64,000 nucleotides of DNA from Blepharisma japonicum. Taxonomy: Eukaryota > Ciliophora > Heterotrichea > Heterotrichida > Blepharismidae. The stretch lies in assembly GCA_949751835.1 (NCBI GenBank), contig CATKHK010000115.1, forward strand, positions 56,008 through 120,007. Direction: 5' to 3'. Under the pieces are notes generated by a model. That model was given only the letters and a program-made list of their open reading frames with translations, searched no databases and had not been told where the DNA came from. The position numbers were made by a program, and so were the translations under genes. Positions within the stretch are counted from its first letter, which is position 1. Each line of letters opens with the position of its first letter. This document shows positions 9,908 to 63,006 of this stretch, one piece after another.

Positions 9908-10133
9908 TTATTATTATTAACTGCCATTCATTTGCACGAGATGTCGAGAATGTGCATAACCGTCACGGGAAAATTAAGGAATTTCATGGGGTTTAGATGG
10001 TAGCGTAAACATATGTGTATAAGTTTGATAGAGAATTTATATAAATTATGATAAGAAAAGCCCATTATAATTATGAATTAAATCAGATAAAAGGAATTGA
10101 TTTATTCAAAAGATTATAGAAACTCATTAAATT

Positions 10134-25905: not shown

Positions 25906-26133
25906 TATCGTAATTTCTTAGACTTAATATTATTTATAGAGTAAATTTCCAAACAACTGTTATATAATAAATGAGCATTTTTTTAGAAATTTTCAATAAA
26001 CAGTATACTCATAATTTAATTAATTAAAAATATGTGTTCCGAATGATACTTTATAGAAGCCGCAATCTCTAAATTATCTGATCCGTTTGAATTATTATTT
26101 TCTTTTACAATATTCAATGCATTTATAATTAAA

Positions 26134-26690
26134 ATGGCTAAGTGTGGTATTTTAATTGGAGCAAGCCGAGGAATGAAAATTAACCATATCCAAAGCAAAA
26201 GATTTCTTTCCTCTAATTAATAAATTCTAGGCCTAATTTTCTAAAAATCCAATTCCTAAAGATTTTGATGCTGTTATGAATATTAACACTAGATAGTATC
26301 TTCTAAGCTAGAGAACTTTGAGATAAATTTGCTAAAGGCTCAAAAACTATGATAGCCAGCACGTGCTCCTCACTTGGATATTATATACCTTTTCCTCTTT
26401 ATTCAATTTCAAAAAACGCATTATACATAACTTATCAAATCTTGAAGCAAGAAATAAAAGCAAAAGATACAGGATCTGCTCTGTAGTAAAGACTCATGTT
26501 TCTGATACAGTTCTTGAAAATTCATGCTAATTTAATATAAATAGACTCCTTTCAGAATTTGCTGCGAAATTTTAACTTATTTGATAAGCAGTAAAGATAC
26601 TCAGAAGCTGAGTGGGAATTTATAAGTCTAATCACCATTCTGAATGGTTGAAGAAGGAAATAAGCCTACTATTTATCTTCACTTAATGAT
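26134..26690 (+). pseudogene. Decayed SDR copy
   Basis: After the same start context (TTTATAATTAAAATGG) it reads MAKCGILIGASRGM, then loses frame. Recognisable later pieces are the DFDAVMNIN stretch, FPLYSISKNALYITYQ and the C-terminal NAEW-like end. Several TAA/TAG, frameshifts and an internal deletion make it non-functional. It is more diverged from copies 1 and 2 than they are from each other, so it is the older duplicate. Confidence 0.85.
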
Positions 26691-27015
26691 AATTTTTAAT
26701 CAAGTCTTCTATATCAGCACAGGATGATTAAGCAGCAAACCTCCCAATCTTTCCAATGACAAACTATTTGAAATAATACATTATAAAATTATTTTACTCA
26801 TATTTAAGGCATATATATTTTAAGTTTAGCTAAATAGCTATCTTATTATAAATCAAATTAGAATTATTGTGATGGTAAAACTGATTAAAATAAAAGCATT
26901 AAAATTTAATTGACTCAAAGCTAGCAAAGCATTTTCTTGTCCTTAAGCCCCAAGCAATTATCAGAATATGATGTTTTTGATGGCCTAAAGGCCAAATTAA
27001 ATTTTTATTAATATA

Positions 27016-28707
27016 TGCTTCAATGCCTTTTAAAAATGCAAATTAAGAAAATATCTTTTTTTATCCGTCAGTTGCACCTATAATGCATACATATCCTTCC
27101 TTAAAATCGCTTTAAATCGATACAGCAGAAGAGTTTCCAATAAAGTCAATTCAATATCACAAAAGGATTTTAAAAGCTCCGAAGAGTGCGAAAATTAGAA
27201 AATCATTTATGAACCGTCTATTTATTATTCGTTTATCACCAGACTAGGCTAATATAGCTCATACAAACATGGAGAAAAATTTAGGGATAACAATCTCAAT
27301 ATACTTTGATATATTCATTAAATCAGACAGAAACAAATTCTATTTTTACCTGATAAAATCTGCAACAAACTTTTGGAGGCGGATTTGATTTTTTGATAAT
27401 TTCTCTGATAAATCATGAATTTGATAGGGATATTCTTTTGGTTGTCGTTTCCTACGGAGTTACTGAACAATGGAAAGAAGAATAAGGTCTGAGAATCAGA
27501 CTGATTGACCTAATAACTATACAGGATTTGACGGAAGAAGACTATAGACTGACTAGCATAAATAACCATATCCAATGTTTTTATAATTAAAAATGTTGAG
27601 AATTGTTACAATTTCTCTATATATTTATAATTAAAATGGTTGAATATGGAGTTGTAATAGGAGCTAGTAGAGGAATTGGTAAGGCCTTAACTCTGAGATT
27701 AGCAATCCAATACCCTAATCTCCCTATAATAGCTATTTCTAGCTCAATCACTTCTACTCCAACCGTTACAGAATTTTCTCAATCTCATCCCAATATTTCA
27801 TGCTTTGATGCTGATATGGGTACAATAGCAGGAGTCACATCAGTGATTAACTATATTCAAGGCAAAATTCGATTTCTTGTCTACGTATCAGGAGTTCTAG
27901 GTCCTTCATGGTCAGAAAATACTACCTCTGAAGATTACGACGCTGCTATTAATGTTAATGCTAAGGCAATTTTTTTCTTAGCGAGAGGGCTTGCTGATAA
28001 ATTTGCTGAAGGCTCAAAATTATTAATAATAGGAACAAGTTTGGCTCATAAATATTTGTTTCCTTTCCCTCTTTATTCAATTTCAAAAGCAGCATTATAC
28101 ATGACATATCAAGTTTTAAAGCAGGAACTCAAAACTACAGCAGTAGGCTCTACACATCCAGGAATAGTGAGAACTCTAATGCAGGATGTAAGTAAACAAA
28201 AACTTGGGGTAGAAATTAATATTCGAGTAATCGAGCCAGAGGTTTGTGCGAAATTTTTAGCGTTTTTAATAAGCGATAGAGTAAGTAGTGAAAGATTTTC
28301 TCAAGCAGAGTGGGATATTTATACGCCAGATCATCATTCTGAATGGCTTGAAGAAGGAGATGAACCACCTGTATTGCTTCTTTAATATCATAATTTCTCA
28401 GACTTAATATTATTTATAGAGTAAATTTCCAAACAACTGTTATATAATAAATGAGCATTTCTTTAGAAATTTTCAATAAACAATATACTCATAATTTGAT
28501 TAATTAAAAATATGTGTTTCGAATGATACTTTATTGAAGCTGCAAGCTCTATTTTACGCATATTTAAAGGCATATATCTTTTAAGTTTAGCTAAATAGCT
28601 ATCTTTATTATAAATCAAATTAGAATTATTGTGATGGCAAAACTGATTAAAATAAAAGCATTAAAATTTATTTGACTCAAAGCTAGCAAAGCATTTTCTT
28701 GTCTTTA
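27016..28707. repeat. Segmental duplication, unit 2 (SDR copy 2)
   Basis: Direct repeat of 24467-26947 with the relic region deleted: the sequence after TGAAGCTGCAAGCTCT joins straight to the part matching 26790 onward. It ends near 28707, just before the UCH gene's stop. Confidence 0.85.
27636..28385 (+). CDS. Short-chain dehydrogenase/reductase, copy 2
   Basis: 249 residues, no TGA, differing from copy 1 at roughly twenty positions, many of them conservative. The GASRGIG turn, NVNAKA and YSISK are intact, so it is probably active with the same cofactor class. A single extra base in the leader (AAAAATGTTG) puts the upstream ATG out of frame, which supports 27636 as the start of both copies. 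Confidence 0.88.
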   Translation: MVEYGVVIGASRGIGKALTLRLAIQYPNLPIIAISSSITSTPTVTEFSQSHPNISCFDADMGTIAGVTSVINYIQGKIRFLVYVSGVLGPSWSENTTSEDYDAAINVNAKAIFFLARGLADKFAEGSKLLIIGTSLAHKYLFPFPLYSISKAALYMTYQVLKQELKTTAVGSTHPGIVRTLMQDVSKQKLGVEINIRVIEPEVCAKFLAFLISDRVSSERFSQAEWDIYTPDHHSEWLEEGDEPPVLLL

Positions 28708-29595: not shown

Positions 29596-31341
29596 ATGAA
29601 TCCTTCGATTTCGACACTAAGTTTTTCTGCATTAGAAAGGAAATACTATGTGGCTGAATTCGATAGATTAACAGAAAAGCAAGAAATTTCTATAGTTGAC
29701 AGAACGTTATTAAAGGAAGAATGCATGAATTTCTTGAAAAGATTAAAAATTTCAAGAACAGATTGTGATGATATCTGAAATTTGGTAAGTGAAGGCCAAA
29801 ATGTATTAAAATTGCCAAATTTTATGGCAGCTATGAGAATGTGTAGTGTTTTGAAACAAGGATTACGAGTTGGAAAGGAAAATTTAATTAAAGAACAAAG
29901 CGTTTTAGCAAGAAAATCGAAAGATAAAGATTTAAAAAATACTGAAGATTCAAAGCCAGGGGTAATTTCAAATAAAAGGACTGAGAATGGGAAGGGTAAA
30001 GACACTAATGATAGGCCGAACAATGTCCCAGCTATGCAGGAAACTGTTCAGAATATTTTACCAAAAGTGCCAGCATTGTCGGATGATAAGAAATTTCCTG
30101 CGTTTGAAAAACCAATCGAAAATGTTTTTACTGGGAATAAGTCACCATTAAAAAATTTCGAAGAAAATAAAACTCCAGTGCCGCCGACAGAAATAAAAAC
30201 CTTAAACCCTGCTTTAACTGAAAAATCGATATTCCAGGCACCTTTAAACCTAATTAATGCTTCAGAGCCTACAGAATTGAATAAGCGAGAAATCTCAGTA
30301 GAAACTCCTACACTGGTGAGCTGCGGATGGTTTGGGAGTTCATCATATCACACTTATCCAATCATTACACAAATAAATGACCAAATCTATAGAGTCACAA
30401 GAAGATTTAGCGACTTAGATTGAATGCATAACTTATTAGTCAAAAATTATTGCGGATTCCTTATACCTCCACGGCCTGACAAAAGAATTATTAACAATAA
30501 CAATGACAAATTTATTGAAGAACGAAGATTACAGATAGAAAAATACTTAAATATTATTTTAAATAACCCAGTATTAGGTATGTCACTACCATTTAAAGTT
30601 TTTACACAAACCAGAGATGAAAATTTCGAAATTGAAAAAAAATCAGCAGAAGACAGCCAAGAAAATCTCCAAGCTAAAAGTTTTGAAGATTTAATTGACA
30701 ACGTCTATGCAAAATTCCAAACAAATTATCAAAAATTATTTACTGATATTCCTATAAAAGAAGATATTGAAAATATAGTGGAAAATATAATAAAGCTGGA
30801 TTCTCCTACACAGTTATGTATTAATTCTTATCAAAATTGGACTAATCAGCAGAAATTGACGATAGAGGCATTTAGTGAATTCGAAATCCCAGAAGAGCCA
30901 GATATTTCTGATATTTTTCAGCAGCATTCAAGGAATTGCCAGCGGAATTTCGAAGAGCTTGACCAATTTCATTCAGAATTTTCGAATGAGCATTTGCGAT
31001 TGGAAGGTTTAAAACAAGCAATAAATTCATATAAAGGGTCAATTAATAAATATCATGAACAAGAAGCTTTAATTTCAAGAAAATATGCAAAGCATAAGAA
31101 TTCCTATGATGAAGAGACAGCCTCAAGATATTTACAAGAACTGGAATCTGCTGAGCAAGATTTGGAGAAATTAACTAAGTCATTGAGTAAAATAGAAAGC
31201 AATTTAATCCAAGAAAACATGAGATTTGAAGCAACGAGGAGCGAAGAAATTATGAAAACTGTTGTTGGGATTACTAAAATGCAAAGAGAATTTTATGAAA
31301 AAGAATGTGTATTTTGGCAAAATGCTCTTGAAAAATTTTAA
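29596..31341 (+). CDS. SNX8-like: SNX8/Mvp1-like sorting nexin (EH-like, PX, BAR)
   Basis: 581 residues with two TGA Trp (29776-29778, 30421-30423). The N-terminus (DIWNLVSEGQ, LPNFMAAMRMCSV) resembles a degenerate EH hand. A long disordered linker follows. The PX domain (about 240-345) has YRVTRRFSDLDW, whose W is TGA, and GFLIPPRPDK, the basic PI3P-binding turn. The rest, about 380-581, is helical and coiled-coil (LRLEGLKQAINSYKGSINKY, FWQNALEKF), fitting a BAR domain. Mvp1/SNX8 tubulate endosomes and return cargo to the Golgi. The order EH-like, PX, BAR is specific to this group. Confidence 0.8.
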
Positions 31342-45279: not shown

Positions 45280-47064
45280 TTAAATAAAACTTATATATAC
45301 TGATTGAGTGATTTTTATTGATGCAGTTATAAACTGAATTTTCACAACTAAATTAACTCCTTCTGCATAATAGTGTTTTTCATATATGCTAATTTTATTT
45401 CAAATATACTCATTATCAATTTCACTTTCATAAATTCAATCCTGAGTATCAATTAGATAAGCTCTCATATTTCATGTGTACAATATTTTAAGAGAAAATG
45501 GATTTATCTCACTTAGCAATAATATCTTTGAGTAGCTTTCTATTGCGAAATCAAATTTAAATAATCTAGAACTATTTTCTGCACAAAATAAAATAGAATT
45601 GCGATATATAGCACTACAAAAGTTGCATGATGCATCTATAGGAAGTTCGGGAAGCATCATTTTCCTATATGAGATTAGATCATATTTTTCCAAAAAATTT
45701 GAATTGAAAATATAAACACAATTTCCATAATATAAAAATGAGAATTTATTGTTTTCTTTGCACATAGGAAGTATTTTGCTTATGTTCATAGTTTTTAGAT
45801 CAATTATGCATGCATGATTGCTTATGAGTAAGCAAAATAGTTTGCAATTTGGAATCTCAATTGCATTTGGGGCATATTCATGAAATCACGCGCTTTTAAC
45901 ATGGAACTCTGCCTTTTTTCAAGTTTCTGCCCCAAATATTTTAATGAGACTCCCACGGACTCTGAATAAATGCTTGGCTTCAAAACCACTTTGAATTAAT
46001 TTAGAAATTCGTCTAAGTCCATTTCTAAGGTTTACAATTTTTGTGTCTCCTTTATTTTTACAATGAAAACTCCAATTTAGTGCATTCTTTATTTTCCTAT
46101 TAAATTCATATTTTAATTCATTAATAACTTCTTGACTTTGAGTTATCTTTACGAGTCAATTACTTTTAACTTCGCATTCTAATCGTAAAACTTCGTTTAA
46201 TTTTTCAAGAAATTTAATTTCACTTTCAATATTGTCTATAATAATCATAATCTCCATTATCGATAAAGAAAAATCATTTATTGAAAAATCATATTCCATC
46301 GCAGTTTTAAGCTGAATAAGAGTATCTTCGTGCTCATGAATATTAGCTATTCCATCTTTTATCAATCCTGCACAATAGCTTGAGCGATAGTCTGCTGAGA
46401 GTAATTTATTTTCAATGATTTGGAGCGCAGATATTTGGGTGTTAATTTGGGTAAGAATTGCTTCAGCAATCTTAATTGGTTTCTTACTAGATACTTCGAA
46501 AAGATGCTCAAAAAGAAATCTAATGTCTTCAATTGGATTCCCACTCTTCCAAATAAAACGAGCTGAAATTTATTTCACAACTGAATTATTTTAAAATATT
46601 TATTCTTAAATATCTGAATAATTTTTAGGAACTTTAAAACTTTAAATAAACTGAAACAAATTTATTAAATTGAGATTTTAGATTGGCAAGGATAAAAGAA
46701 TTAATAGAATGAGCTGAAGTTTAATTAAAATGTTATTAATATACCACGGGAGTTTGGTATGCCAAAAAGGAATTTGGATTGCCATAGCCCTCCAGGAATG
46801 CTGTTTCCCGTGAGGGAAATAATGTATATATAGAAATAAATTAAAACATTATTTCTTTCTCAGATACTAAGATTTTGTATTCTTCACTATAGTTATCATT
46901 AATGGAAAATTAGGGTTAGAGATTTTGCTAATAGGATACTCATTATCTAGAAAATGCACATGATCTTTAACATGGTTTCGACAAAAGGCTTGATTAAATA
47001 AGCATCTACACTTCTTCTCTGCTACTTTATAGCAAAAAGGTTGAAAGCAAATTTGATTGATCAT
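45280..47064 (-). pseudogene. Cys/His-rich + propeller protein, copy E (interrupted)
   Basis: The 5' part (47064-46867) reads MINQICFQPFCYKVAEKKCR, CLFNQAFCRNHVKDHVHFLD, a C..C, C.C, C..H...H pattern like a small zinc-binding (B-box-type) head, and ends in TAG. About 300 bp of unrelated DNA follows. From about 46560 the frame is open for about 425 codons with TGA as Trp: a helical region (HLFEVSSKKPIKIAEAILTQ; SIMEIMIIIDNIESEIKFLE) and then propeller-like blades (YGNCVYIFNSNFLEKYDLIS, SRLFKFDFAIESYSK, WIYESEIDNEYIWNKIS). Comparison with copy F shows that the last blade (IYKF..SRKKLYQIE) continues in another frame, so a frameshift near 45370 truncates it to TAA at 45280. Confidence 0.65.
46725..46860. 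mobile_element. Candidate small palindromic element (MITE- or IES-like) inside copy E
   Basis: Within the about 300-bp interruption of copy E. TTTAATTAAAATGTTATTAA near 46722 is roughly inverted in TAAATTAAAACATTATTTC near 46834; inside them CACGGGA (about 46745) faces TCCCGTG (about 46806). No coding. The ends are imperfect, so the extent is approximate. Confidence 0.4.
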
Positions 47065-48039
47065 TTTAAAATTTATAGATGGTTTGCAAAATTGATATTA
47101 ATTAATTAAAATAAGTAAGTCTTTTGGCATATGTCTACTAGAGCAGTTGAAATTTAGCATATCTTCATTATAGTCAGGCCTAATCAGCCATTATTGGTTA
47201 AATATCATCTCCATTAGTAATTATTGCATATAAATTGTACTATTGGCTAGATTTTATAGATTAAATCAACTGGAAGTTGTTTGCCTATCCCAGTGGTGCC
47301 TGATCAAGAAATTTCTGCCGAATTTTCGCATATTTATCCAGGTATTAAAAAAAATATGAAATAAATTTAAACAAGATTTCAAATTAAAATAATATTCATA
47401 TGCGGAACGGTTTAAAAGAATAACTAAGTTAACTTTAGCATTTGAGAAGCCCTGATACGCATTCTTGTGGTATGCATTGCTATTATAAATAATAATATAG
47501 GATTTAAAATAGATTGAGTTTCATTATAGAGTTAAAATCTTTTAATTCAAAATGCTAATTAAAATTAAAATGTGCAGCCTTATAATGCTATTGAGATAGT
47601 GATTTCAGCTTTGTTTAAATATTAGTCTTTTTACATTTCTAATAAATTTCTAGTTTACACATAGCTTTCTCAAATCTGATAAAATCTATTATGAAATAAG
47701 AACATTTTCTAAGTAAATATAAATTCACGAAGTTCATAAAAGAAGCATTAGAGAAGAAAATATGATTGTAAAGCTTTTGAAGCGGCTGCATTGATTCCAA
47801 GTCTACATGATTCTAGCTACAGTCTGTTGAGGTGACAAACAAAAAGCTGAAGATCTTGAAACGATATTGGTATTTTATTTTTAAAATTTATTATTTTGAC
47901 AGCGAGATGAAAGAGAAAAAATATTTAATTCAGATTCTAATAAATTTTATAGGAATTTTGATTTAATTCAGAGCTTATAATCGTGCTCTGAAATAATGAG
48001 ATAAAGCAATTAATTCTAAGGAGAAAATAATATAAAATC
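47065..48039. promoter_or_regulatory. 5' flank of TPR gene A with two coding-like relics
   Basis: From 47119 it is repeat arm 1. Near 47279-47350 a frame reads SCLPIPVVPDQEISAEFSHI, which weakly recalls SDR sequence (PTAAEFSQSHPNI). Near 47768-47845 a frame reads KAFEAAALIPSLHDSSYSLL. The last about 60 bp (GAGATAAAGCAATTAATTC, then a purine-rich leader) are shared by A, B, C and D and probably hold the core promoter. Confidence 0.45.
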
Positions 48040-50853
48040 ATGGCAGATTCAGATCAGCTTAGAAGCACTAAGCTTTTGTGTAAATTGAACGAGCTGGGAG
48101 CTCAAATGGCTTGCATATCAGCTAGGCCTGATAATTCAAAAACAGAACAAGATTTTAGGGAAGCTTTTTCATTGTATCAAAATGAGAATCATGTTTCTGA
48201 TCCATTCATCAGCCAAACCGACCAGGAATTGGTGGAGAAGTATCATCAAATCACCTCTCTTTATCTTTTTGGCGAACTTGATGGAAAAGCGAATTTATTC
48301 ACTTATAACACTGAAAATGAGAGGGAAGAAGCAAAATTGATAGAAACTCCAAATAGATTGGATATTACTGGTGCATCAATTGTTCAGCTTCCCAATGGTG
48401 AGCTATTCTGCAGTTGTAAAGAATATCAAAGCTCTTTTATTACTTTTATTATTAATAAAAACTATGAGGTTCGAATGTTGCCATCTCAAAAGTCTTATGA
48501 ATCATTAGCAACTATCTATTCTAGAGGAAATGTCTATTGCTTTGGAAAAGATGAAGATTCTGAAACTCTATCTTATAGATTCGATTTGTACAGGAATCTA
48601 TGATTTAAACTGACTCCTATCCCATATGGTTCCTCTTGCAATAGTGCAGTATTCAATAAAAATATTTTCATTTCCGAATATAATTGTGAAAATCTTATGC
48701 AATATTCAATTGATATAGACTCTTTCTCAATAATTCCTCATGATTTTCAAAGGGACTGTAGAAAGGTCTTAATAAATGGAGAGGAGAGATTATATTTGAT
48801 TGAATGAGCTGATAATAGATTAATTTATGAAAGTGAAGTGGGAGATGAGTATAATTGGAAACAAATAGCAAGAGCAACAATAAATGAAGATTGCGACCAA
48901 TTATATTGAATATATAATAAAAGAGGAATATATATCTCAACTCTTATTAATGAATGCTTAAGGGAATATTATAAGTTTGATTTAGACCAAAATGCTTTTA
49001 TTGGTATTGCTTATTATGATAAGCATATAGCTATTCGAAAATTAGGCGGAAAGGTTGAAGCGATAAAATGCTATAACCAAACTTTTAATCTCAATCCTCA
49101 AGCTGCTTTAAGTTTTGGAAAATTCACTATTAATGATTTAGGGAGAAAACTTGAGAAAATTGAATCCTACAATGAAGCAATTAAGCTTAATCCTGCCGAT
49201 GCGGATGCCTACATGGAGAAAGGAAACACTCTTAACGATTTCGAAAGATATCTTGAAGCAATAGAATGTTTTGATGAGGCAATCAAAATCGATCCCAGCA
49301 AATTTTATGCTTACCATAATAAAGGATTTTCTCTTAATGCTTTGAAAAGGTATAGCGAAGCAATAGAATGCTATAATAAGTCATTAGAAATAAATTCAAA
49401 TTTCCCAGAAGCTTATATATATAAAGGAAGGGTTCTTTATAATTTAAACAGATGCATTGAAGCAGTTGAATGCCTTGAAGAGGGTATCAAAATCAATCCT
49501 AGCAAAAAATATGCACACTATTTAAAAGGATGTGCTTATTTTCGTTTATACAGAAATCAAGAAGCACTTGAATGTTTTGACGAGGCACTTAAGCTTGATC
49601 CGCATTACGCTATTATTTATGATATAAAAGGAATGACTCACTATCGCTTGGAAAATTATCTTGAAGCAATTGATTGTTATAATGAAAGTATCAAATTTTA
49701 CCCTAATGAAGCTTCTCAATATAAGAATAAAGGAAATGCTCTTTATGATTTACAAAGATATCTTGAAGCAATTGAATGCTATAATCAATCAATCAAGCTT
49801 GACCCTAAAGATGCTACTGTTTACACTAAGAAAGGACATAGCCTTTTCCAATTGGAAAGGTTTTTGGAAGCAATAGAATGCTATAATGAAGTCATCAAAA
49901 TAGATCCAAGTGATGTTGATGTTTACGAGTTCAAAGCATCTGCTTTTTCTTATTTGGGAAGGTATTTGGAAGCAATAGAATGTTTCGACGAAGCAATCAA
50001 AATAAATCCTAACAATTATAATAACTATATGTGCAAAGCAAATATTCTTGACATTTTGGGTAGAAGTCTCGAAGCAGTAGAATGTTATGACGAGGCAATC
50101 AAAATCGATCCTGAATGGGCTTCTGCATATCATAATAAAGGAGATATTCTTCTCTATGCACTTGATAGAGCACTTGAAGCAATAATATGTTATAATGAAG
50201 CAACCAAACTAGATCCTGATAATCCTCTAAATTTCTTTAATAAAGTGCTGGCACTCAATAGTATAGGTCAAGAAGCAGAAGCATTCCAGGACTTTTACCG
50301 AGGATATTATTTAATAAAAGAAAGCCAAGCAAGTGATAATCCCAAATTCAACCTTTCTGAAATAAATAGGAATTTTACTAATGAAGCATTAAAAAACGAT
50401 TTCATAGAAATGCTTCAAAAGATTGCTCAACTGGGAGAAAGCGCAAATGGCTTTAAAGAGGAATTTAATAGCCTCAAAAGATACCAAAAATCCAAACTAA
50501 TAAAGGAGATTGAGGAGCAAGAAGAAACAATTAATGAAGAGCGTTCTCAACTTTTAATGAATGCAGCTGGCTTCTTTAGTCCAAATAATGATACACTAGA
50601 AGAGATGCAGGAAAAAGTTTATCAGGTTAATAGAGAAGCTGATGAATACCTAAAAAGGGTTATTTCAACAATCTCGGATCTCTGATCGTCTCTGCAGCAT
50701 AAAGTGAATGAAGATGAATAATCATTATCTTTTGGGTAGGCTCTTATATAAGAAATAGTTAACTAAATTCATATAAACTTATTTAGTAGCTTTATTGGGG
50801 CAATGAATAGTTTATTTTGATATATTTTAGGCAAATAGACTTGGTGAACATTT
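47119..50853. repeat. Inverted repeat, arm 1 (contains TPR gene A)
   Basis: From TCTTTTGGCATATGTC to GGTGAACATTT this block is matched in reverse complement by 56280-60016, over both flanks and the whole TPR gene. The arms are about 3.7 kb each and about 5.4 kb apart. Confidence 0.85.
48040..50721 (+). CDS. Propeller-TPR family protein A
   Basis: 893 residues, one frame with TGA as Trp (first at 48601). N-terminus MADSDQLRSTKLLCKLNELG, then about 260 residues of beta-rich, kelch-like blades (ITSLYLFGELDGKANLFTYN; GELFCSCKEYQSSFITFII; YNKRGIYISTLINECLREYY), then about 12-13 TPRs of 34 residues (consensus YLEAIECYNEAIKIDP), then a C-terminal helix/coil (KEIEEQEETINEERSQLLMN; YQVNREADEYLKRVIST). 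Likely a protein-protein scaffold; no enzyme motif. Neither signal peptide nor TM. TAA at 50719. It lies in inverted repeat arm 1; the nearest relative by layout is C. Confidence 0.9.
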
Positions 50854-51360
50854 CATGGTCAACACTCAAATAAGGACTATAATTCAATTGAGTGTGAAGC
50901 CGGAAATACATATAAATTTGATCTACGAAGCAAAGAAGTTTATGATACAGTTCTTAATTATTTTCGTAGTTTTGATATACAGAAATATCCTATCTGCCTT
51001 TACTTTGAGTAAATTTAATATTAATAGCGTTAATAAATAAAAAGATGGTTATATAGACTCAATAATTATTAATAAAGAGTTAAAATTTAATAAAGACCTT
51101 ACTTAATAAATCTAATTTGTTTATCTGTAATTTGTAATAGATCTTGCTTTAAGATTTAATAAGGATGAAATGCAAAGTCTTTGTTTAGATAAATTTTATT
51201 ATTTAATCAAAGTTCCTTTTTTACTTTTAAATAATTCTTCGATTTATTAAAAAATTTGCAATACTTGTTTATTTTTAACTTGGGAGAACTTTTTAAGCAA
51301 ATAATTTACTCATTTTAAATATAGATTTAAACCATTTTTATAGTTCTATAAATTTAAAAA
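50722..51360. other. Intergenic with a relic of the last propeller blade
   Basis: The first 130 bp belong to repeat arm 1. At about 50904-51020 a short frame reads TYKFDLRSKEVYDTVLN, like YKFDLGSKRLYEI at the end of copy F, so it is a fragment of the propeller family. The rest is AT-rich with nothing seen. Confidence 0.45.
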
Positions 51361-52788
51361 TGACTAATCAAACTTGTTTTCGTCGTTTTTGCAATGAATT
51401 AGCAGAGATCAATTGCAGCTGTTTAATCAGCCTAGCATTTTGTAGCTTGCACTCTAAAGATCATATGCATTCCTTAGATAGTGATCATCCTATTGAAGAA
51501 ATCTCTAACACACTCTAAGTAACTAATAATTGAATCGAAGCCACTGAACTTCAAGAACATCCTTTTGAGGCATTCAATAAGAATCCAGGTAGAGCTATTG
51601 AAGCAATTCTTTTACAAATTTACAAACAATTATTAGCGCTCCAAAAAAAAAAATAAAATTGCTCACAGCAGATTATCGTTCAATTTGCTGTGCAGGGTTA
51701 CTTAAAAATGGGCTATTAAAAATTGAAGAGTACAAAGAAGTTCTTGATCAGCATAAAACTGCTGTAGAATACGCAACTTCAATAGAAGATTTTTGCTTAT
51801 CACTAATGGAAATTATTATGATAATAGAAAATGTAGAAATGGATGTTGAATTCTTTGAAAAATTAAATAAAGTTTTATTGTTGGAAAAGGAAGTTAAAAG
51901 CCACTGACTCGCAAAATTTAATGAAAGCCCAAAAGTGCTCGACTGAAAATAATAGAAAAATAAGGATGCAAAAAATTGATGTTTTCGGAATAAAAGTAAT
52001 GGAGATAAAAATTGCATAAGTTTGAGGAATAAACTAGGTTGAATTTCTAAGTTAATTCGAAACGATTTTGAAGCCAAACATTTTTTCTTAATCCATAAAG
52101 ATCATCTCACAATATATGGCGCAGAAATCTGAAAAAAGTGAGAGTTCCCTATAATACCTAAAGATATAATACCTTATGATGCTATTTAAATTCCTAATTC
52201 CAAGATTTTTTGTTTGGATATTTACAAAAATTCATATATTATTGATTTAAAAAAGATGGAAGTAAGCAAAATTTTGCCAAATTCCAGCGGAGGTAACCAG
52301 CTTGTTCTTTTATTTTTTGAGAATTGTATTTACTCATTCAGTTCTACATTTGCTAATGCATCTTTGAATTATTTGGAAAAATATGATATAATTTCATATA
52401 ATAAAACAAATCTAGCTAGGTCTCCTATATACGCATCCTGCAACTTCCAATGCACTGCATATTGCAATTCAATATTATTTTGTGCAAAGAATAGTTTTGA
52501 TTTATATAAGTTTGATTCTATAAAAGAAAGCTATTCAAAGCTTCCAATTTTGGGAATAGGTGGATTTTCTCTAAAAATGTTGTTTACTGCAAATATGAGA
52601 GCATATGCAATTGATACTAGTAATGGGATTTTTGTAAAATTGGTGAATGTCAAAAATACTATTATGCAGAAGGCTTTAATATAAGCCCAGAAAAATTATT
52701 TTATTTTCCTATAATTAAAAATAGCTTAATGACTATATATAAATTTGATTTAGGAAGCAAGAGGCTCTATGAAATTAGATTTGCTTAG
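51361..52788 (+). pseudogene. Cys/His-rich + propeller protein, copy F (broken)
   Basis: It starts MTNQTCFRRFCNELAEINCS, CLISLAFCSLHSKDHMH, the same Cys/His head as copy E, then meets a TAA after ISNTL. Homology goes on (NWIEATELQEHPFEAFNKNP; AIEAILLQIYKQLLALQ) through a frameshift at an A-run near 51650, further stops near 51950, an open stretch (ENCIYSFSSTF, DLYKFDSIKESYSKLPI, ANMRAYAID) and another frameshift near 52665, to YKFDLGSKRLYEIRFA and TAG at 52786. At least three disabling changes: a pseudogene. Confidence 0.8.
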
Positions 52789-52983
52789 CTTATTTTCCTT
52801 TCTATATGAGTGGACAATAAGCGAATTTATCCTATTAATTAGTTATATAATTTCAGGCAAGGCCAAATCTTATCACCTAAAATATATCAAAAAAACTATT
52901 TATTGCCATAATAAAGCTACTAGATAAGTTTATATAAATTTAATTTACTATTCTTTATTTAAGAGTCTGCCCAAGAGATAATT

Positions 52984-55770
52984 TTATTCATCTACACTCA
53001 CTTTTTGCTTCAGAGATGAAATTGTCGAAGTAATCCTTTTTAGGTGTTCATCAGCTTCTCTAGCTATTTGATAAATATTTTGCTGCATCTCTTCTAGTGT
53101 ATCATTATTTGGACTAAAGAAACCAGCTGCTTTCATTAAAAGTTGAGAACGCTCTTCTTTAATTGTTTCTTCTTGTTCCTCAATCTCTTTTATTAATTTT
53201 TGATTTTCGGTATCTTTGAGGCTATTAAATTCCTCTTTAAAGTCAATGGCACTTTGTCCCAGTTGAGCAAGTTTTCGAAATAATTCTATGAAATCGTTTT
53301 CCAATGCTAGATTAGTAAAATTGCGATTTATTTGAGAAAGGCTGAATTTGGGATTATCACTTGTTTGGCTTTCTTTTATTAAATAATAGCCTCGGTAAAA
53401 GTCCTGGACTGCTTCTGTTTCTTGTCCTAGACTATTGAGTGCAAGCGCTCTATTAAATAAATTCAAAGGATTATCAGGATCTAATTTGCTTGCTTCATTA
53501 TAACATACTATTGCTTCAAGTTTTCTATCTACTCCACAGAGAATATTTCCTTTCTTATAATAAGCAGAAGCACAGTTAGGATCAATTTTGATTGCCTCGT
53601 CATAACATTCTATTGCTTCAAGATTTCTATCCAGACGAGCAAGAGCATTTCCTTTTGTTTCATAAACAACAGCACTGAAAGGATTAATCCTAATTGCCTC
53701 TTCATAGCACTCAATTGCTTCGAGATCTCTATTCAAGTTATAAAGAGCATTTCCTTTATAATGATATGTATTAGAATTTTTGGGATTGATTTTGATTGCC
53801 TCGTCACAACATTCTATTTCTTCAAGATACCTTTTCAAATCATAAAAGGCATAACTTTTATACTCATAAGCCTCAGGATCTCTAGGATCAATTTTGATAG
53901 CTTCATTAAAGCATTCTATTGCTTCCAAATACCTTTTCAATTGGCAAAGGCTATTTCCTTTCTTAGTGTAAATATCAGCATCTCTAGGGTCAAGCTTGAT
54001 TGATTCATTATAGCATTCAAATGCTTCAAGATATCTTTTCAAACCATAAAGAGCATTTCCTTTATCGCTATATGTCCAAGCATTATTAGGGTCGATTTTG
54101 ATGCTTTCATTATAGCAATCAATTGCTTCAAGATATTTTTCTAAACGATAGTATGCATTTCCTTTTATATTATGATAATTAGCATTATAAGGATCAAGCC
54201 TATGTGCCTTGTCAAAACATTCAATCGCTTCTAGATTTCTATCTAAACAATAATAAGAGCATCCTTTTAAATCATGTGCTTCTTTTATTCTAGGAAAGAT
54301 TTTGATACTCTCTTCAAAACATTCAATTGCTTCAACGTTTCTATTTAAATAAAAAAGAGCAATTCCTTTATTTATGTTAACTTGTGGGATAGTAGAATGG
54401 ATTTTTAATGTCTCATTATAACATTCGATTGCTTCATTGTATCTTAACAAAGCACTAAGAGAGCGTCCTTTATTATAGTAAGCATAAAATTCTCTCGAAT
54501 TGATTTTGATTACCTCATTATAACATTCTATAGCTTCAAGATATCTTTCTAAATAGAAAAGAGTATTTCCTTTATCAAGGTAGACCTTCGCATTGCCAAG
54601 ACTAAACTTGATTGCTTCATTACAGCGTTCAATTTTCTCAAGATTTTCCCCTAATTCATTAATAGTGAATCTTCCACGTTTGTAACTTAAAGCAGTTTGA
54701 AGATTGAGATTAAAAGTTTGGTTATAGCCTTCTACCGCTTCAAGCTTTCTCTCTAATCCTCGAATAGCTATATGCTCATCATAATAGCCAATACCAATAA
54801 AAGCATTTTGGTCTAAATCAAACTTATAATATTCTCTTAAACATTTCTTGCTAAGAGTTGAGATATATATTCCTCTTTTATTATATATTCAATATACTTG
54901 TCGGAAATCTGAATTTATTATTGCTGATTTTGCTATTTGTTTTCAATTATATTCATCTCCTACTCCACTTTCATAAATAAATCCATCTTGATCTCATTCA
55001 ATCAAATATAGTCTCTCCTCTCCTTTTGTTAAGACTTTTACACAATCGCTTCGAAAATCATAAAGAATTATTGAGAAAGAGTTTATATCAATTGAATATT
55101 GCACAAGATTTCCCTGTTTAGATTGGGAAATTAAAATGGTTTTATTGAATACTGCACTATTGAAGTCGAAATGATGATATGGAATAGGAGCCAATTTAAA
55201 TCACATATTGTTGCCCAAATCGAATCTATAAGTTAGAGTTTGAGCTCCTTTATCTTTTCCAAAGCAATAGACATTTCCTCTCAAATAGACAGCTGTTAGG
55301 CATTCATAAGGTTTTCCAAGTGGCAACATTCGAAGCTTATAGTTTTTACTAATAATAAAAGTAATGAAAGTGCTTCGATAATTTTTACACATGCAAAATA
55401 GCTCACCATTGGGAAGGAGAACAATTGATGAATTACTAGTATTCAAATTTTTTGGAATTTCTATCAATTTTGCTTCTTCCCTCTCATTTTCAGTGTTATA
55501 AGTGAAAAAATTAGCTTTCCCATTCTCATCAACTTCACCACAAAGATAAAGAAAGGTGGTTTGATAATACTTTTCCTCCAATTTCTGGTCAGTTTGGCTG
55601 ATGAATGGATCAGAAGCATGGTTTTCATTTTGATACAATGAACAAGCTTCCCTAAAATCTTGTTCTGCTTTAGGATTATCAGGCCTATCTGATATGCAAG
55701 TCATTTGAGTTCTTAGCTCTTTCAATTTATTCAAAAGCTTAGTGCTACTAAGCTGATCTGAATCCACCAT
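52984..55770 (-). CDS. Propeller-TPR family protein B (one extra TPR)
   Basis: 928 residues, one frame with TGA as Trp (first at 55201-55203). Same plan as A: MVDSDQLSSTKLLNKLKELR head, propeller-like region (LYLCGEVDENGKANFFTYNT; GELFCMCKNYRSTFITFII), TPRs, and the EEQEETIKEERSQLLMKAAG coil. It is 35 residues longer than A, which equals one TPR unit; thirteen to fourteen TPRs are countable. It is the most diverged of the four. TAA at 52984. Its 5' flank to about 56240 resembles the flanks of A, C and D. Confidence 0.9.
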
Positions 55771-56412
55771 GAATATATTATAATATTTTATTCTCTTTCG
55801 GAATTAATTGCTTTATCTCATTATTTCAGAGGATGATTATAGGCTTTTATTTAAATCCAAATTACTATAAAATTGGTCAGAATCTGAAATAAATCATTTT
55901 TCTATGCCATCTCGTTCTGAAAGTAATAAATTTTTAAAATAAAATCCCAAGATTGCCTTAAATTTTCAAACTTTATTTGTCGCCCCAAAGACTGTAGCTT
56001 GCATCATTTCGACTTGGCACCGATGCAGCTGCTTCGAAAGCCTTACAATTAAATTTTCTTCTATTATGCTTCTTTTATCAGATTCTGTGAATTCTCTATT
56101 TGATAAGAAAATATTTCTTATTTTATAATAGTATTAGTATGATTTAAGCATGTGCACTGAAAATTGATTAGAAATGTAAAAAAAGACTAATATTAAAAAA
56201 AAAATGAAATCACTCTCTCAATAACATTTTTAGGCTAAACATTTAAATTTTAATACTGAAGAAAAGCCCTATAAATGCTAAATGTTCACCAAATCTATTT
56301 GCCTAAAATATATCAAAATAAACTATTCATTGCCCCAATAAAGCTACTAAATAAGTTTATATAAATTTAGTTAACTATTCCTTATATAAGAGCCTTCCCA
56401 AAAGATATTTCT
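55771..56412. promoter_or_regulatory. 5' flank of gene B and 3' end of repeat arm 2
   Basis: About 55771-56240 is related to the 5' flanks of A, C and D, including TTCGAAGC-GCTGC and the ATTAATTGCTTTATCTCATT stretch just before the start codon. From 56280 begins repeat arm 2. No separate gene. Confidence 0.6.
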
Positions 56413-59400
56413 TTATTCATCTTCACTCACTTTTGGCTGCAGAGACGATCTGAGATCCGAGATCGTTGAAATAACCCTTTTTAGGTATTCATCAGCTTCT
56501 CTATTAACTTGATAAATTTTTTGCTGCATCTCTTCTAGTGTATCATTATTATTTGGTCTAAAGAAGACAGCTGCTTTCATTAAAAGTTGAGAACGCTCTT
56601 CTTTTATTGTTTCTTCTTGTTTCTCAATCTCTTTCATTAGTTTGGATTTTTGGTAACTTTTGAGGCTATTAAATTCCTCTTTAAAGCCAATTGAGCTTTC
56701 TCCCAGTTGAGCAAACTTTTGAAGTAATTCTATGAAATCGTTTTTCAATGCTTCATTAGTAAAATTACTATTTATTTCAGAAAGGTTGAATTCGGGATTA
56801 TCACTTGTTTGGCTTTCTTTTATTAAATAATAGCCTCGGTAAAAGTCCTGGAGTGCTTCTGCTTCTTGACCTAGACTATTGAATATCAGCGCTTTATTAA
56901 AGAAATTCAGAGGATTATCAGGATCTAGTTTGGTTGCTTCATTATAGCATACTATTGCTTCAAGTTTCCTATCCAATTCACAGAGAATTTTTCCTTTCCT
57001 ATGATAAGCAGAAGCTCATTTAGGATCGATTTTGATTGTCTCGTCATAACATTCTAATGCTTCGAGTTTTCTATCAATCATGTCAAGAGTAAGTCCTTTT
57101 CAATGATATGTATTAGAATTGTTGGGATTTATTTTGATTGCTTCGTCGAAACATTCTATTGCTTCCAAATATCTTTTCAAAAAAGAAAAAGCAATTCCTT
57201 TATACTCGTAAGCAGCAGCATTTCTTGGATTAATTTTGATGACTTCATCATAGCATTCTATTGCTTCCAAAAACCTTTTCAAGTTATAAAGGCTACGTCC
57301 TTTATTAGTGTAAACAGTAGCATCTTTAGGGTCAAGCTTGATTGATTGATTATAGCATTCAACTGCTTCAAGATATCTTTTTAAATCATAAAGAGCATCT
57401 CCTTTATTCCTATAATTGCAAGCTTCATTAGGGTTAAATTTGATGATTTCATTATAACAATCTATTGCTTCAAGATAATTTTGCAAACTATAGTGAGCAT
57501 TTCCTTTCATTTTATAAATACCAGCAAAATAAGAATCAAGCTTAAGTTCCTCGTCAAAGCATTCAATCGCTTCTAGATTTCTGCCTAAATGATAATAAGC
57601 ACATCCTTTGTAATACTGTGCATATTTTAATCTAGGATTGATTTTGATACTCTCTTCAAGGCATTCAACTGCTTCAATGTATCTGTTTAAATTATAAAGA
57701 ATCCTTCCTTTATTCATATAAGCTTCTGGGATATTTGAATTTATTTCTAATTCCTCATTATAACATTCTAGTGCTTCGCTATATCTTCTTAAAGCATTAA
57801 GAGAAAATCCTTTATTATGGTAAGCAGAATAATTGCTAGGATCGATTTTGATTGCCTCATCAAAACATTCTATTGCTTCAAGATATCTTTTTAAATCGGA
57901 AAGAGCATTTCCTTTATCAATGTAAGCACTCGCATCGGCAGGATTAAGCTTGATTGCTTGATTAGAGGATTCAATTTTTTCAAGTTTTCTCCCTAAATCA
58001 TTAATAGTGAATTTTCCAAAACTCAAAGCAGCTTGAGGATTGAGATTAAATGTTTGATTATAGCCTTCTATCGCTTCAAACCTTCCGCCTAATTTTCGAA
58101 AAGCTATATGCTTATCATAATAAGCAATACAAATAAAAACATTTTGGTCCAAATCAAACTTATAATATTCTCTTAAGTATTCATTAGTAAGAGTTGAGAT
58201 ATATATTCCTCTTTTATTATATATTCAATATACCTGGTCGCAATTTTGATTTATTGTTGATTTTGCTATTTGTTTCCAATTATACTCATCTTCCACTTCA
58301 CTTTCATAAATAAATCCATTTTTCGCTCATTCAATCAAATACAATCTCTCCTCCCCATTTATTAAGACCTTTCTACAGTCCCTTTGAAAATCATAAGGAA
58401 TTATTGAGAAAGAGTCTATATCAGTTGAATATTGCATAAGATTTTCACAATTATATTCGGAAATGAAAATATTTTTATTGAATACTGCACTTTTGCAAGA
58501 GGAACCATATGGGATAGGAGTCAGTTTAAATCATAGATTTCTGTACAAATCGAATCTATAAGATAGAGTTTCAGAATCTCTATCTTTTCCAAAGCAATAG
58601 ACATTTCCTCTAAAATAGATAGCTGCTAATGATTCATAAGACTTTTGAGATGGCAGCATTCGAAGCTCATAGTTTTTATTAATTATAAAAGTAATAAAAG
58701 AGCTTCGATGTTCTTTACAACTGCAGAATAGCTCACCATTGGGAAGCTGAACAATTGATGCACCATTAGTATGCAATTTATTTGGAGTTTCTATCAATTT
58801 TGCTTCTTCCCTCTCATTTTCAGTGTTATAAGTGAACAAATTCGCTTTCCCATCAAGTTCACCAAAAAGATAAAGAGAGGTAATTTGATGCTTCTCCTCC
58901 AATTCCTGATAAGTTCGGCTGATGAATGGATCAGAAATATGATTCTCATTTTGATACAATTGGCAAGCTTCCCTAAAATCTTGTTCTGTTTTTGGATTAT
59001 CAGGCCTAGCTGATATGCAAGCCATTTGAGCTCCTAACTCGTTCAATTTACACAAAAGCTTATTGCTTCTAAGCTGATCTGGATCCGCCATGAATTTATA
59101 TTATTTTCTCCTTAGAATTAATTGCTTTATCTCATTATTTCAGAGCACGATTATAAGCTCTGAATTAAATCAAAATTCCTTAAAAATTTATTAGAATCTG
59201 AATTAAATCATTTTTCTCTTCCATCTCGCTCTGAAAATAATAAATTTTAAAAATAAAATTCCAATATCGTTTCAAGATCTTCAGCTTTTTGTTTGTCACC
59301 TCAACAGACTGCAAATAGAATCATTTAGACTTGGAATCAGTGCAGCCGCTTCAAAAGCTTTATAATTATATTATCTTCTCTAATGCTTCTTTTATGAACT

Positions 59401-60016
59401 TTGTGAATTTATATTTGCTTAGAAAATATTCTTATTTAATAATAGATTTTATCAGATTTGAGAAAGCTATGTGTAAACTAGAAATTTATTAGAAATGTAA
59501 AAAGACTAATATTTAAAAACAGCTGAAATCACTCAATAGCATTATAAGGCTGCATATTTTAATATTAATGAGCATACTCTTTGAATAAAAAGATTTTAAG
59601 TCTATAGATGAAGCTCAATCTATTTTAAATCCTATATTTATTATTTATAATAGCAATGCATGCCACAAGAATGCGTATCAGGGCTTCTCAAATGCTAAAG
59701 TTAACTTAATTTTACTTTTAAACTCTTTCCACATATGAATATTATTTTTATTTGAAATCTTGTTTAAATTTATTTCATATTTTTGTTTAATACCTGGACA
59801 AATATGTCAAAAATTCGGCAGAAATATCTGTATCAGGCACCACTGGGATAGGCAAACAACTTCCAGCTAATTTAATCTATAAAATTTAGCCAATGGTGCA
59901 ATTTATATGCAATAATTACTAATGGAGATGATATTTAACCAATAGTAGTTGATTAGACCTGACTATAATGAAGATCTGCTACATTTCATCTGCCCTAATG
60001 GACATATGCCAAAAGA
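56280..60016. repeat. Inverted repeat, arm 2 (contains TPR gene C)
   Basis: Reverse-complement counterpart of 47119-50853. The match includes gene C, about 130 bp after its stop and about 925 bp before its start. Confidence 0.85.
56413..59091 (-). CDS. Propeller-TPR family protein C
   Basis: 892 residues, one frame with TGA as Trp, including 57100-57102 (TYHWKG) and the W of DPKWASAYH, which is TGG in gene A (DPEWASAYH): direct paralogue evidence for UGA = Trp. Head MADPDQLRSNKLLCKLNELG; propeller-like region nearly identical to A; about 12-13 TPRs; coil KEIEKQEETIKEERSQLLMK ending SEDE, TAA at 56413. Probably intact. It is the inverted copy of A. Confidence 0.9.
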
Positions 60017-60300
60017 ATTATAATAGAAAAAATATGATTGTAAGGCTTTCGAAGCAGCTGCACAGATGTGAAATCTAAAATGATGCTAGCTACAGTCTGC
60101 TGAGGTGACAAACAAAAAGTTATATTTTGAAAACAATCTTGGAATTTTATTTTTAAAATTTATTACTTTCAGAGTGAGATAGTATAGAAAAATGATTTAG
60201 TTTAATTATATAGGATAGGAATTTGGATTTAATAAGAATTTATAAGTTTGCTCTGAAATAATGGATTAACGAATTAATTCTAAAAGAAATAATTTAATTC
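59092..60300. promoter_or_regulatory. Divergent region between TPR genes C and D
   Basis: 1.2 kb, shared by C (leftward) and D (rightward). 59092-60016 is the 5' flank of C (arm 2); about 60027-60300 is D's own copy of the same flank, in opposite orientation. Both hold the coding-like relic (KAFEAAA-type) 190-280 bp before the start. No intact gene. Confidence 0.6.
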
Positions 60301-63006
60301 ATGGCGGATTCAGATCAGCTTAGAAGCCCTTGGCTTTTATGTAAATTGAGCGATCTAAGAACTCAAATGGCTTGCATATCAGCTAGACCTGATAATTCAA
60401 AAACAGAACAAGATTTTAGGGCAACTTGCCCATTGTATCAAAATGAGAATCATACTTCTGATCCACTCATCAGCCAAACTTACCAGGAATTGGAGGAGAA
60501 GCATCAAATCACCTCTCTTTATCTTTTTGGTAAACTTGATGGAAAAGCTCATTTGTTTATTTATAACACTGAAAATGAGAGGGAAGAAGCAAAATTGATA
60601 GAAATTCCAAATAAATTGGATACTAATGGTGCATCAATTGTTCAGCTTCCCGATGGTGAGCTATTCTGCAATTGTAAAGAATATCAAAGCTCTTTTATTA
60701 CTTTTATTATTAATAAAAATTATGAGCTTCGAATGCTGCCATCTCAAAAGTCTTATGGATGAATAGAAGCTATCTATTATAGATGAAATGTCTATTGTTT
60801 TGGAGAAGACGAAAATTCTGAAACTCTATCTTATAGATTCGATTTGTACAGAAATCTATGATTTAAACTGACTCCTATGCCATATCATTGTCCCTATTGC
60901 AACAGTGCTATATTCAATAAAAATATTTTTATCTCCGAACCTAGTAGTAAAAATATTTTGCACTACTCAATTGATATAGACTCTTTCTCAATAATTCCTT
61001 ATGATTTTCAAAGGGACTGTAGAAAGGTCTTAATAAATGGAGAGGAGAGATTGTATTTGATTGAATGAGCTGAAAATGGATTTATTTATGAAAGTGGAGT
61101 GGGAGATGAGTATAATTGGAAACAAATAGCAAAATCAACAATAAATCAAGATTGCGGCCAAGTATATTGAATATATAATAAAAGAGGAATATATATCTCA
61201 ACTCTTACTAATGAATGCGTAAGAGAATATTATAAGTTTGATTTAGACAAAAATGCTTTTATTTGTATTGCTTATTATGATAAGCATATAGCTATTCGAA
61301 AATTAGGCGGAAAGGTTGAAGCGATAAAATGCTATGACCAAACTTTCAATCTCAATCCTCAAACTGCTTTGAGTTTTGGAAAATTCACTATTAATGATTT
61401 AGGGAGAAAACTTGAAAAAATTGAATACTGTAATGAAGCAATCAAGCTTAATCCTGCCGATGTGGAAGCTTACATTGCTAAAGGAAACACTTTTCACTAT
61501 TTAGAAAGAGATCTTGAAGCAATAGAATGTTTTGATGAGGCAATCAAAATCGATCCTATGAAATTTTATGCTTACTATAATAAAGGATTTTCTCTTAATG
61601 CTTTGGAAAGATATAGCGAAGCACTAGAATGCTATAATGAGGTATTAAAAATAAATTCAAATATCCCAGAAGCTTATATAAGCAAAGGATTCGCTCTTTA
61701 TAGTTTAAACAGAAATGCTGAAGCAGTTGAATGCTATGAAGAATGTATCAAACTCAATCCTAAATTAGAAATTGCACATTATTGAAAAGGATGTGCTTAT
61801 TATTGTTTAGGCAGATATTTAGAAGCGATTGAATGCTTTGATAAACCACTTAAGCTTGATCCTTATGAAGCTAAATATTATTATATGAAAGGAAATACTC
61901 ACTATAATTTGGAAAATTATCTTGAAGCAATTGATTATTATAATGAAAGCATAAAATTCAACCCTAATTATGCTAATACATATAAGAATAAAGGAGATGC
62001 TCTTTGTGATTTGAAAAGATATCTTGAAGCACTTGAATGCTATAATGAATCAATCAAGATTGACCCTAGAGATGCTATTGTTTACACTAAGAAAGGAAAT
62101 ATCTTTTTCGAATTTGAAAGGTATTTGGAAGCAATAGAATGCTATAATGAAGCTATCAAAATCGATTCTAAATTTATCAATACTTATGAGAATAAAGGAT
62201 GTGCTTTTTTTGTTCTGAAAAGGTATCTTGAAGCAATAGAATGCTACGACGAGGCGATCAAAATTAATCCCAATAATACTGATGCATATTATTATAAAGG
62301 AATTGCTCTTTGTTATTTAAATAGATATCTTGAAGCAATAAAATGCTGTGATGAGGCAATTAAAATTAATCCTGGCAATGCTGCTGTTTACGGATTAAAA
62401 GGAAATGTTCTTGTTTGTTTGGATAGAAAACTTGAAGCAATAGTATGCTATAATGAAGCAGCCAAACTAGATCCTGATAATCCTCTGAGTTTCTTTAATA
62501 GAGCTCTAGCACTCAATAGTCTAGGACAAGAAGCAGAAGCACTCCAGGACTTTTACCGATGCTATTATTCAATAAAGGAAAGCCAAACAAGTAATAGTGC
62601 CAAATTCAACCTTTCTCAAATAAATAGTAATATTACTATTAAAGCATTGAAAAACGATTTCATAGAATTCCTTCAAAAGCTTGCACAACTGCATGAAAGC
62701 ACCATTGGCTTTAAAGAGCAATTTAACAGCCTCAAAGAGACCAAAAATCAAAAACTAATAAAGAAGGTTGAGGAGCAAGAAGAAACAATTAAAAAGCAGC
62801 ATTCTCAATTTTTAATGAAAGCAGCTGATTTCTTTAGTTCAAATAATGATACGCTAGAAGAGATGCAGAAAAAATTTTATCAAATAGATAGAGAAATTGA
62901 TGAACACCTAAAAAGGGTTATCGCAAAAATTTCTAATCTCAAATTGTCTTTGTTAGCAAAACATAGGCATGGATGAATAAAACATTATCTTTTGGGCAAA
63001 GAATAG
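60301..63006 (+). CDS. Propeller-TPR family protein D (with non-canonical TGA positions and an altered C-terminus)
   Basis: 901 residues if all TGA are Trp. Same plan as A (MADSDQLRSPWLLCKLSDLR head, propeller-like region, about 12 TPRs, coil KKVEEQEETIKKQHSQFLMK). Odd: TGA stands at 60760 and 60784 where A and C have Ser and Gly codons, and at 61783 where A has Leu. At the 3' end the GATGAATAA that ends A and C is present but out of frame, so D reads on into the flank to TAG at 63004 (ending IKHYLLGKE). It may still be translated, but it looks less constrained than A and C. Confidence 0.75.

Follow-up and report, generated by a model that had tools for sequence, protein, structure and literature searches.

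The right end of a 64,000-nucleotide stretch of Blepharisma japonicum DNA (contig CATKHK010000115.1, here C115, positions 56,008–120,007; hereafter the window) carries an inverted array of four genes, A to D, in which a head, a kelch-type propeller, a series of tetratricopeptide repeats (TPRs) and a tail follow one another. Judged from codon comparisons among paralogues, the ratio of nonsynonymous to synonymous change (dN/dS) exceeds 1 on both predicted ligand faces, namely the BC and DA loops of the propeller and the groove of the TPR array, with structural positions, strands, head and tail being more conserved. A–D are TPR-bearing members of a very large kelch-propeller family whose products probably act as variable protein-recognition receptors or adaptors.

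The four genes stand in the order + − − +. Gene A (48040..50721, + strand, 893 residues) was divided, with boundaries set by us, into head (residues 1–70), propeller (71–325, i.e. 48250..49014), TPR array (326–735) and tail (736–893). Gene B (52984..55770, − strand, 928 residues) carries one inserted TPR unit in the alignment with A, C and D; gene C (56413..59091, − strand, 892 residues) is an inverted near-copy of A (83 % amino acid identity); gene D (60301..63006, + strand, 901 residues), the divergent partner of C, has last residues extending beyond the position at which the others stop. Gene A is 70 % identical to B and 75 % to D. The initial annotation had described four genes of ~900 residues in this order, which is correct given TGA = Trp, the only reading under which the frames are open. 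Blepharisma reads TGA as Trp, and A–D were translated with table 4; they contain 4, 4, 5 and 7 in-frame TGA codons, respectively, and end at TAA (A, B and C) or TAG (D). Across the genome, 115 of 119 family matches have in-frame TGA and six of 119 have TAA or TAG. The same reading is supported outside the family by the TGA codon at 30421–30423, which lies inside a PX domain scoring 70.2 bits.

Each of the four proteins contains 10–12 clear TPR units, and Pfam matches in A–D comprise hardly anything else (TPR_1, E 4.7e-77 to 7e-66, as tandem 34-residue helix pairs). With our own scoring matrix and cut-off, we counted 12, 11, 10 and 12 clear units in A, B, C and D; the 12–14 initially proposed can be reached by counting degenerate end units. 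AlphaFold2 predicts a confident helical solenoid at about residues 380–710 of gene A. The specific head noted at the outset is present and alike in all four; its only model, of low confidence, makes it helical. Neither NACHT nor NB-ARC is among the Pfam matches listed (a full list for D; for A, B and C the best 25 of 39, 28 and 26, respectively).

The propeller was assigned through relatives elsewhere in the same genome (stretches labeled L plus a number; contigs are labeled C plus a number). In the N-terminal third, Pfam gives nothing for gene A and two weak matches to unrelated families for B. Twenty-two family members align along their length, and the curated Kelch cut-off is passed by two of six relatives in one Pfam test (Kelch_6, 35.8 bits in L040 and 31.9 in L042 for a cut-off of 25.3, the other four below) and by three of four in another (Kelch_1, 32.8 bits in L075; Kelch_6 above cut-off in two frames of L076; none in the fourth protein). 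In the PDB, a profile of the 22 members has its top match among Kelch chains (2.6e-15), with designed propellers, KLHL20 and others following. As the relatives align, in part pass the Kelch cut-offs and lead to Kelch structures, the N-terminal third of A–D is classed as a kelch-type propeller on the strength of the family, not of A alone, in line with the kelch-like propeller of unfamiliar sequence first suggested. Its five blades are set by the kelch motif only, and self-comparison of the propeller for a blade period gave weak offsets only.

TPR codons were compared among the 23 copies that reach 700 residues or more. The groove positions (2, 5, 9, 12, 13, 33 and 34 of the repeat) were fixed beforehand and later found in PMC1261162, the available part of which describes these seven positions as the variable concave ligand face. 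In gene A, the units used for the site analysis span residues 388–693 (49201..50118, + strand; nine 34-residue units). At groove positions, the proportion of nonsynonymous differences (pN) is 0.298 for a synonymous proportion (pS) of 0.185, in the 155 of 253 pairs with pS below 0.22. This mean groove pN was reached by none of 20,000 random seven-position sets and by 0.0001 of draws among non-signature positions, and the true register of the groove ranks first among 34 shifts. In eight non-overlapping close pairs, groove dN/dS is 1.97 (bootstrap confidence interval 1.39–3.00), compared with 0.55 at TPR signature positions and 0.74 at the remaining TPR positions (64 of 72 unit-pairs used, eight being dropped for gaps or identity under 75 %); in the same pairs, dN/dS is 0.43 for the head, 0.75 for the propeller and 0.59 for the tail. 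Single pairs range from 0.63 to 4.38 at the groove, against TPR dS, and seven of the eight lie above 1. Positive selection on the concave repeat face, as seen in some fungal NOD-like receptors, is found here too, with one of the eight pairs against it. A codon model on the 23 copies orders the classes likewise, with omega at 0.273 for signature and 0.644 for remaining positions. In another branch of the family, the pair on C134 and C203 gives a groove value of 1.57 (4 units).

Hot spots in the propeller map to the loops that follow strands b and d. In the window clade, BC loops reach 1.95 (1.56–2.37) relative to propeller dS, with AB and CD turns at 0.53 and strands at 0.39. The loop boundaries used there were then kept fixed for six pairs outside the clade, which give 2.12 (1.62–2.79) for BC loops, 1.52 (1.14–1.95) for DA loops, 0.47 for AB and CD turns and 0.46 for strands. 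In gene A, with blade elements taken from the kelch motif, the diversifying BC loops are residues 125–132, 170–176, 213–218, 256–260 and 301–307. In kelch propellers, the BC and DA loops hold the ligand, as described for KLHL20 in the available part of PMC6720452. Both surfaces named in the initial annotation as places to look, TPR and propeller, thus display dN/dS above 1 where ligands are expected to bind, with TPR signature positions and propeller strands conserved.

Controls came from the same genome. A pair of SDR genes in the window has a dN/dS of 0.35, and other kelch duplicates give 0.14–0.24 (seven comparisons above 55 % identity among ten tandem genes on C53, C117 and C33), at dS of 0.45–1.19, which is higher than in the family pairs; the other tandem kelch families of this genome appear from these ratios to be under strong purifying selection. 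The upstream flanks of C and L017, and of D and L018, are homologous throughout and differ by 0.03–0.08 up to 1.1 kb, indicating that dS in these pairs is not too low. Those of L028 and L029 differ by 0.06–0.07 over 600 bases and by 0.18 over 1.1 kb, and those of L021 and L022 by 0.13 over 300 bases, being unrelated beyond. The flanks of L012/L013, L015/L016 and A/L010 bear no relation to each other, which points to exchange between loci; for L031/L034, no flank was available. For the 1612 differences in the eight pairs, ~59.5 nonsense changes are expected in the absence of selection and zero were counted, a count partly built in, as each copy was cut at its first stop and only copies of 700 residues or more were admitted. 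Among 28 copies, A–D included, two are cut by contig ends and five end early (L014, L020, L024, L025 and L035), so that of the 26 informative copies 21 either show no stop in the part read or end after a complete tail. The family shows both maintenance and loss of copies.

A genome-wide count, in 45.2 Mb and 224 contigs, confirmed that the family is expanded, as the initial annotation had supposed. The N-terminal part of A gave 119 protein matches (117 of 1022 candidates scored) and a short relative 117 (116 of 1081), every listed match in both searches having E ≤ 5.1e-4. A degenerate DNA word for PNG[EK][LF]FC occurs 221 times, and its reversed control not once. The union amounts to at least 231 distinct family places on 99 contigs, a lower bound built from 118 of the 119 N-terminal matches, the 117 matches of the short relative and 100 of the 221 word occurrences. 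The last 159 residues of A gave 69 matches (all 87 candidates scored), so that genes with an A-type tail, with or without a kelch part, number roughly 60–70.

These places crowd at contig ends. On the 140 largest contigs, 96 of 168 lie within 20 kb of an end, a zone holding 13 % of that sequence, compared with 16 of 89 places for other kelch genes (first 100 rows, merged); the small contigs, 6 % of the genome, hold 63 of the 231 family places and none of the 89 controls. Note that contig sizes are known for 36 of the 224 contigs and interpolated for the rest. Several contigs break off within a family gene, and part of the crowding is thus assembly breakage in repeats, with array size a lower bound; breakage and true subtelomeric position are not separable here. 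No doubled CCCTAACA telomere repeat was found in the window, nor did L001–L038 contain any of six telomere-like units in doubled form. Duplication as an assembly artefact, raised from the start as a reason for doubt, is unlikely, given a dS of 0.06–0.14 between the most similar copies compared and unrelated flanks in several of them. A prokaryotic or viral origin was also considered; no relatives were confirmed in viral contigs (query A) or genome contigs (query A3), in searches that may omit records close to the genome from which the window comes.

Several observations weigh against reading these patterns as diversification for recognition. The dN/dS figures are pairwise counts in one genome in which gene conversion is not modeled. 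At the groove, the pair L028/L029 gives 0.63 and the other-branch pair on C138 and C206 gives 1.01 (11 units); the codon model on 23 copies yields a groove omega of 1.127, not tested against 1; and the groove values between units of one protein in other branches, 2.00 (C107) and 3.66 (C46), come from comparisons that are not independent. In the propeller, loop boundaries for the window clade were drawn, from the kelch motif, after the hot spots had been seen, and DA loops of that clade, at 1.21 (0.86–1.62), are not above 1 with confidence. One of the six other-branch pairs, from the kelch-only tandem group of L075, disagrees with a BC value of 0.53, as does a further, overlapping pair of this group (0.75). 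Finally, structure prediction backs the solenoid and leaves the propeller at low confidence, with a mean pLDDT of 37 for head and propeller alone and all of residues 1–369 below 50 in the full-length model.

Taken together, a conserved frame, two hypervariable ligand faces, many copies, array turnover and inter-locus exchange look like a recognition family. The suggestion of a variable recognition family made in the initial annotation is supported, at the level of sequence, by the expansion, by groove and loop dN/dS above 1 and by most copies being open. The set combines many paralogues and a changing ligand surface with a conserved scaffold, as generally found where recognition diversifies.

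The window genes are one of several architectures. Many relatives end after the propeller, at about 350 residues. Longer ones start with a finger of Cys and His residues, which in L079 reads C-x4-C-x7-C-x-C-x7-C-x2-H-x3-H-x7-H, and a coil, a module with 140 matches in the genome (138 of 579 candidates scored). Two tandem kelch relatives bear an N-terminal WW domain (L076:1-1317, 30.0 bits; L076:2242-3540, 23.7 bits; cut-off 26.9). Conversely, L072, L073 and L074 encode long TPR proteins that keep the A–D tail and have no kelch part (833–1134 residues read). As kelch-only and TPR-tail-only proteins exist, the window genes join two modules also found apart, and TPR-tail and kelch proteins may act in one complex. 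In L048/L068 (C107) and L050/L069 (C46), the TPR units (9 and 11) are much alike outside groove positions, recalling the repeats of high internal conservation in fungal NOD-like receptors.

The finger and coil that precede the kelch part in longer members raise the question of whether these proteins are substrate adaptors of ubiquitin ligases, built like TRIM proteins or kelch adaptors, with the variable faces selecting targets for degradation. Kelch faces are known as readers of ligase substrates (available part of PMC6720452), and such adaptors would be a special case of the output step of a recognition family. We consider this doubtful. No RING, BTB or F-box is among the Pfam matches listed for A–D or for the N-terminal parts tested, and the eight-Cys/His finger itself has no Pfam match above cut-off (one DUF7041 match, 20 bits for a cut-off of 28). 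A–D have neither the finger nor the long coil, and no convincing finger relic was found upstream of them, the best match, just upstream of B, having an E of 0.06. We take the finger of the longer relatives to be B-box-like; A–D show neither RING nor B-box among the Pfam matches listed.

The occurrence of both halves apart and fused, the diversification of both surfaces and the very high copy number would also suit paralogue insulation, in which many parallel intracellular complexes of kelch and TPR-tail partners diverge at their interfaces against cross-reaction and nothing foreign is recognized. Such divergence should slow once copies have separated, yet groove dN/dS stays above 1 in seven of eight close pairs; crowding at contig ends would also be left unexplained, though part of it is assembly breakage. 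Neither objection is strong, and we hold insulation to be unlikely. A role as scaffolds of the cytoskeleton or of cilia, with copies multiplied for dosage, is a much poorer match: TPR and coil layouts are common in cilia, and the two WW-bearing relatives, one of them above cut-off, presumably resemble centriolar WW proteins, but binding faces should then be under purifying selection, as ordinary kelch duplicates of this genome are at 0.14–0.24, which makes this very improbable. Relaxed constraint, under which surplus copies drift without function, would account for the high regional ratios, for the five of 26 informative copies that end early and for the broken relative between A and B, but is hardly credible as drift cannot yield ~2 on one face and 0.4–0.6 in the core of the same protein, and 21 of the 26 copies stay open as far as read where nonsense changes are expected by the dozen.

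Around the genes, the array is built on two inverted arms of ~3.6 kb (3.7 kb in the initial annotation, which had placed A and C in them), 47116..50721 and 56413..60020, made of collinear pieces at 91–94 % identity (self-comparison pairs I17, I5, I1, I9 and I23); the left arm comprises gene A and the right arm gene C, each with ~0.9 kb upstream. Much of the 1.2-kb intergenic stretch between the divergent C and D (59092..60300) is found again in front of A and of further copies. From the 1182 bases at 47119–48300, 862–1182 are matched at 88–100 % in eight places, A and C included. The window runs right up to the end of contig C115, and the array is therefore likely to be truncated. Decay, also proposed initially, is not seen in A–D and is seen in a broken relative of the finger-coil-propeller type interleaved between A and B (51297..52924, + strand; its matched stretch holds one TAG and three TAA), as well as in some copies in other parts of the genome. 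Left of A lies a neighbor gene of the same type (45283..47097, − strand; finger frame 47097–46870, main frame 46569–45283), which has no Pfam match and matches a family place on C154 weakly (1.6e-9); its finger piece and main frame are ~300 bases apart, hence introns or damage are possible. Relatives of this gene (36–56 % identity) are interleaved with TPR-kelch genes on C10, C181 and C202. A possible further remnant of the type was noted by eye right of D, at ~63.4–63.7 kb.

Elsewhere in the window, SDR-like tandem genes, named by eye, occupy 24681–28707 (25114–25905, 27603–28385 and a more distant one at ~26.4 kb); the first two form the control pair with a dN/dS of 0.35. G+C varies from 0.26 to 0.41 in 2-kb blocks, positions 1–10000 standing at 0.39–0.41 against ~0.30 in the last third; no standard-code open reading frame of at least 180 residues is listed for these 10 kb, which perhaps hold a long gene using TGA = Trp or tiny introns. 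For comparison, the B. stoltei genome has 41 Mb, 66 % AT and introns of 15–16 bp (available part of PMC9942806).

If A–D belong to a recognition family, copies would arise and die by exchange within these contig-end arrays. The head, replaced in longer relatives by the Cys/His finger and coil or by WW, may serve together with the tail for oligomerization or for coupling to a shared downstream step; a new copy could then switch target without changing output. Targets would be fast-changing proteins, most likely foreign or non-self, related to pathogen, symbiont, prey or mating type. More tentatively, the whole may be a ciliate innate recognition repertoire, directed at pathogens, symbionts or self versus non-self, of several hundred kelch proteins, some fused to TPRs, with two separate ligand surfaces of one molecule diversifying simultaneously, supplied by recombination among the arrays at contig ends and sharing finger-coil or WW output modules. 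To our knowledge, the intracellular discrimination of friend and foe in ciliates is a largely open question. The array offers a concrete gene set in which two mapped surfaces bear the signature known from immune and allorecognition receptors of other systems, with controls for this signature in the same genome.

In TRIM proteins, a Cys/His finger and a coil likewise precede a variable recognition domain, and the longer relatives are built alike; here, however, no RING is seen, the finger is unrecognized by Pfam, and A–D start without it. In the literature covered, nothing was found on this family or on a variable kelch face combined with a variable TPR groove, and the available part of the B. 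stoltei genome article (PMC9942806) does not contain the word kelch. BTB-kelch adaptors of the KLHL type (KLHL20, available part of PMC6720452; KEAP1) have in common a kelch propeller with BC and DA loops as ligand face, whereas here no BTB is seen, the kelch sequence is degenerate and a TPR array follows. Young leucine-rich repeat (LRR) genes of Tetrahymena are alike in setting, a mass-expanded, fast-evolving recognition repeat in a ciliate, with lineage-specific expansion and subtelomeric and pericentromeric enrichment (PMC6564038, as far as available); they have LRRs in 90-bp exons, whereas the present genes encode kelch and TPR parts in a single frame and have mapped ligand faces at which dN/dS exceeds 1, and the words kelch and positive selection are absent from the main text of that article. 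Fungal TPR-type NOD-like receptors, according to the available part of PMC4986451, evolve by positive selection on the concave face and by change in unit number, and share with the present family large size and TPR arrays of alike units in variable number with selection on the concave face; they differ in that A–D have no NACHT or NB-ARC among the matches listed and carry instead an N-terminal kelch propeller that is also diversifying. By analogy, the closest counterpart in action would be these fungal receptors and in setting the young LRR genes of Tetrahymena, with the B. japonicum family belonging to neither.

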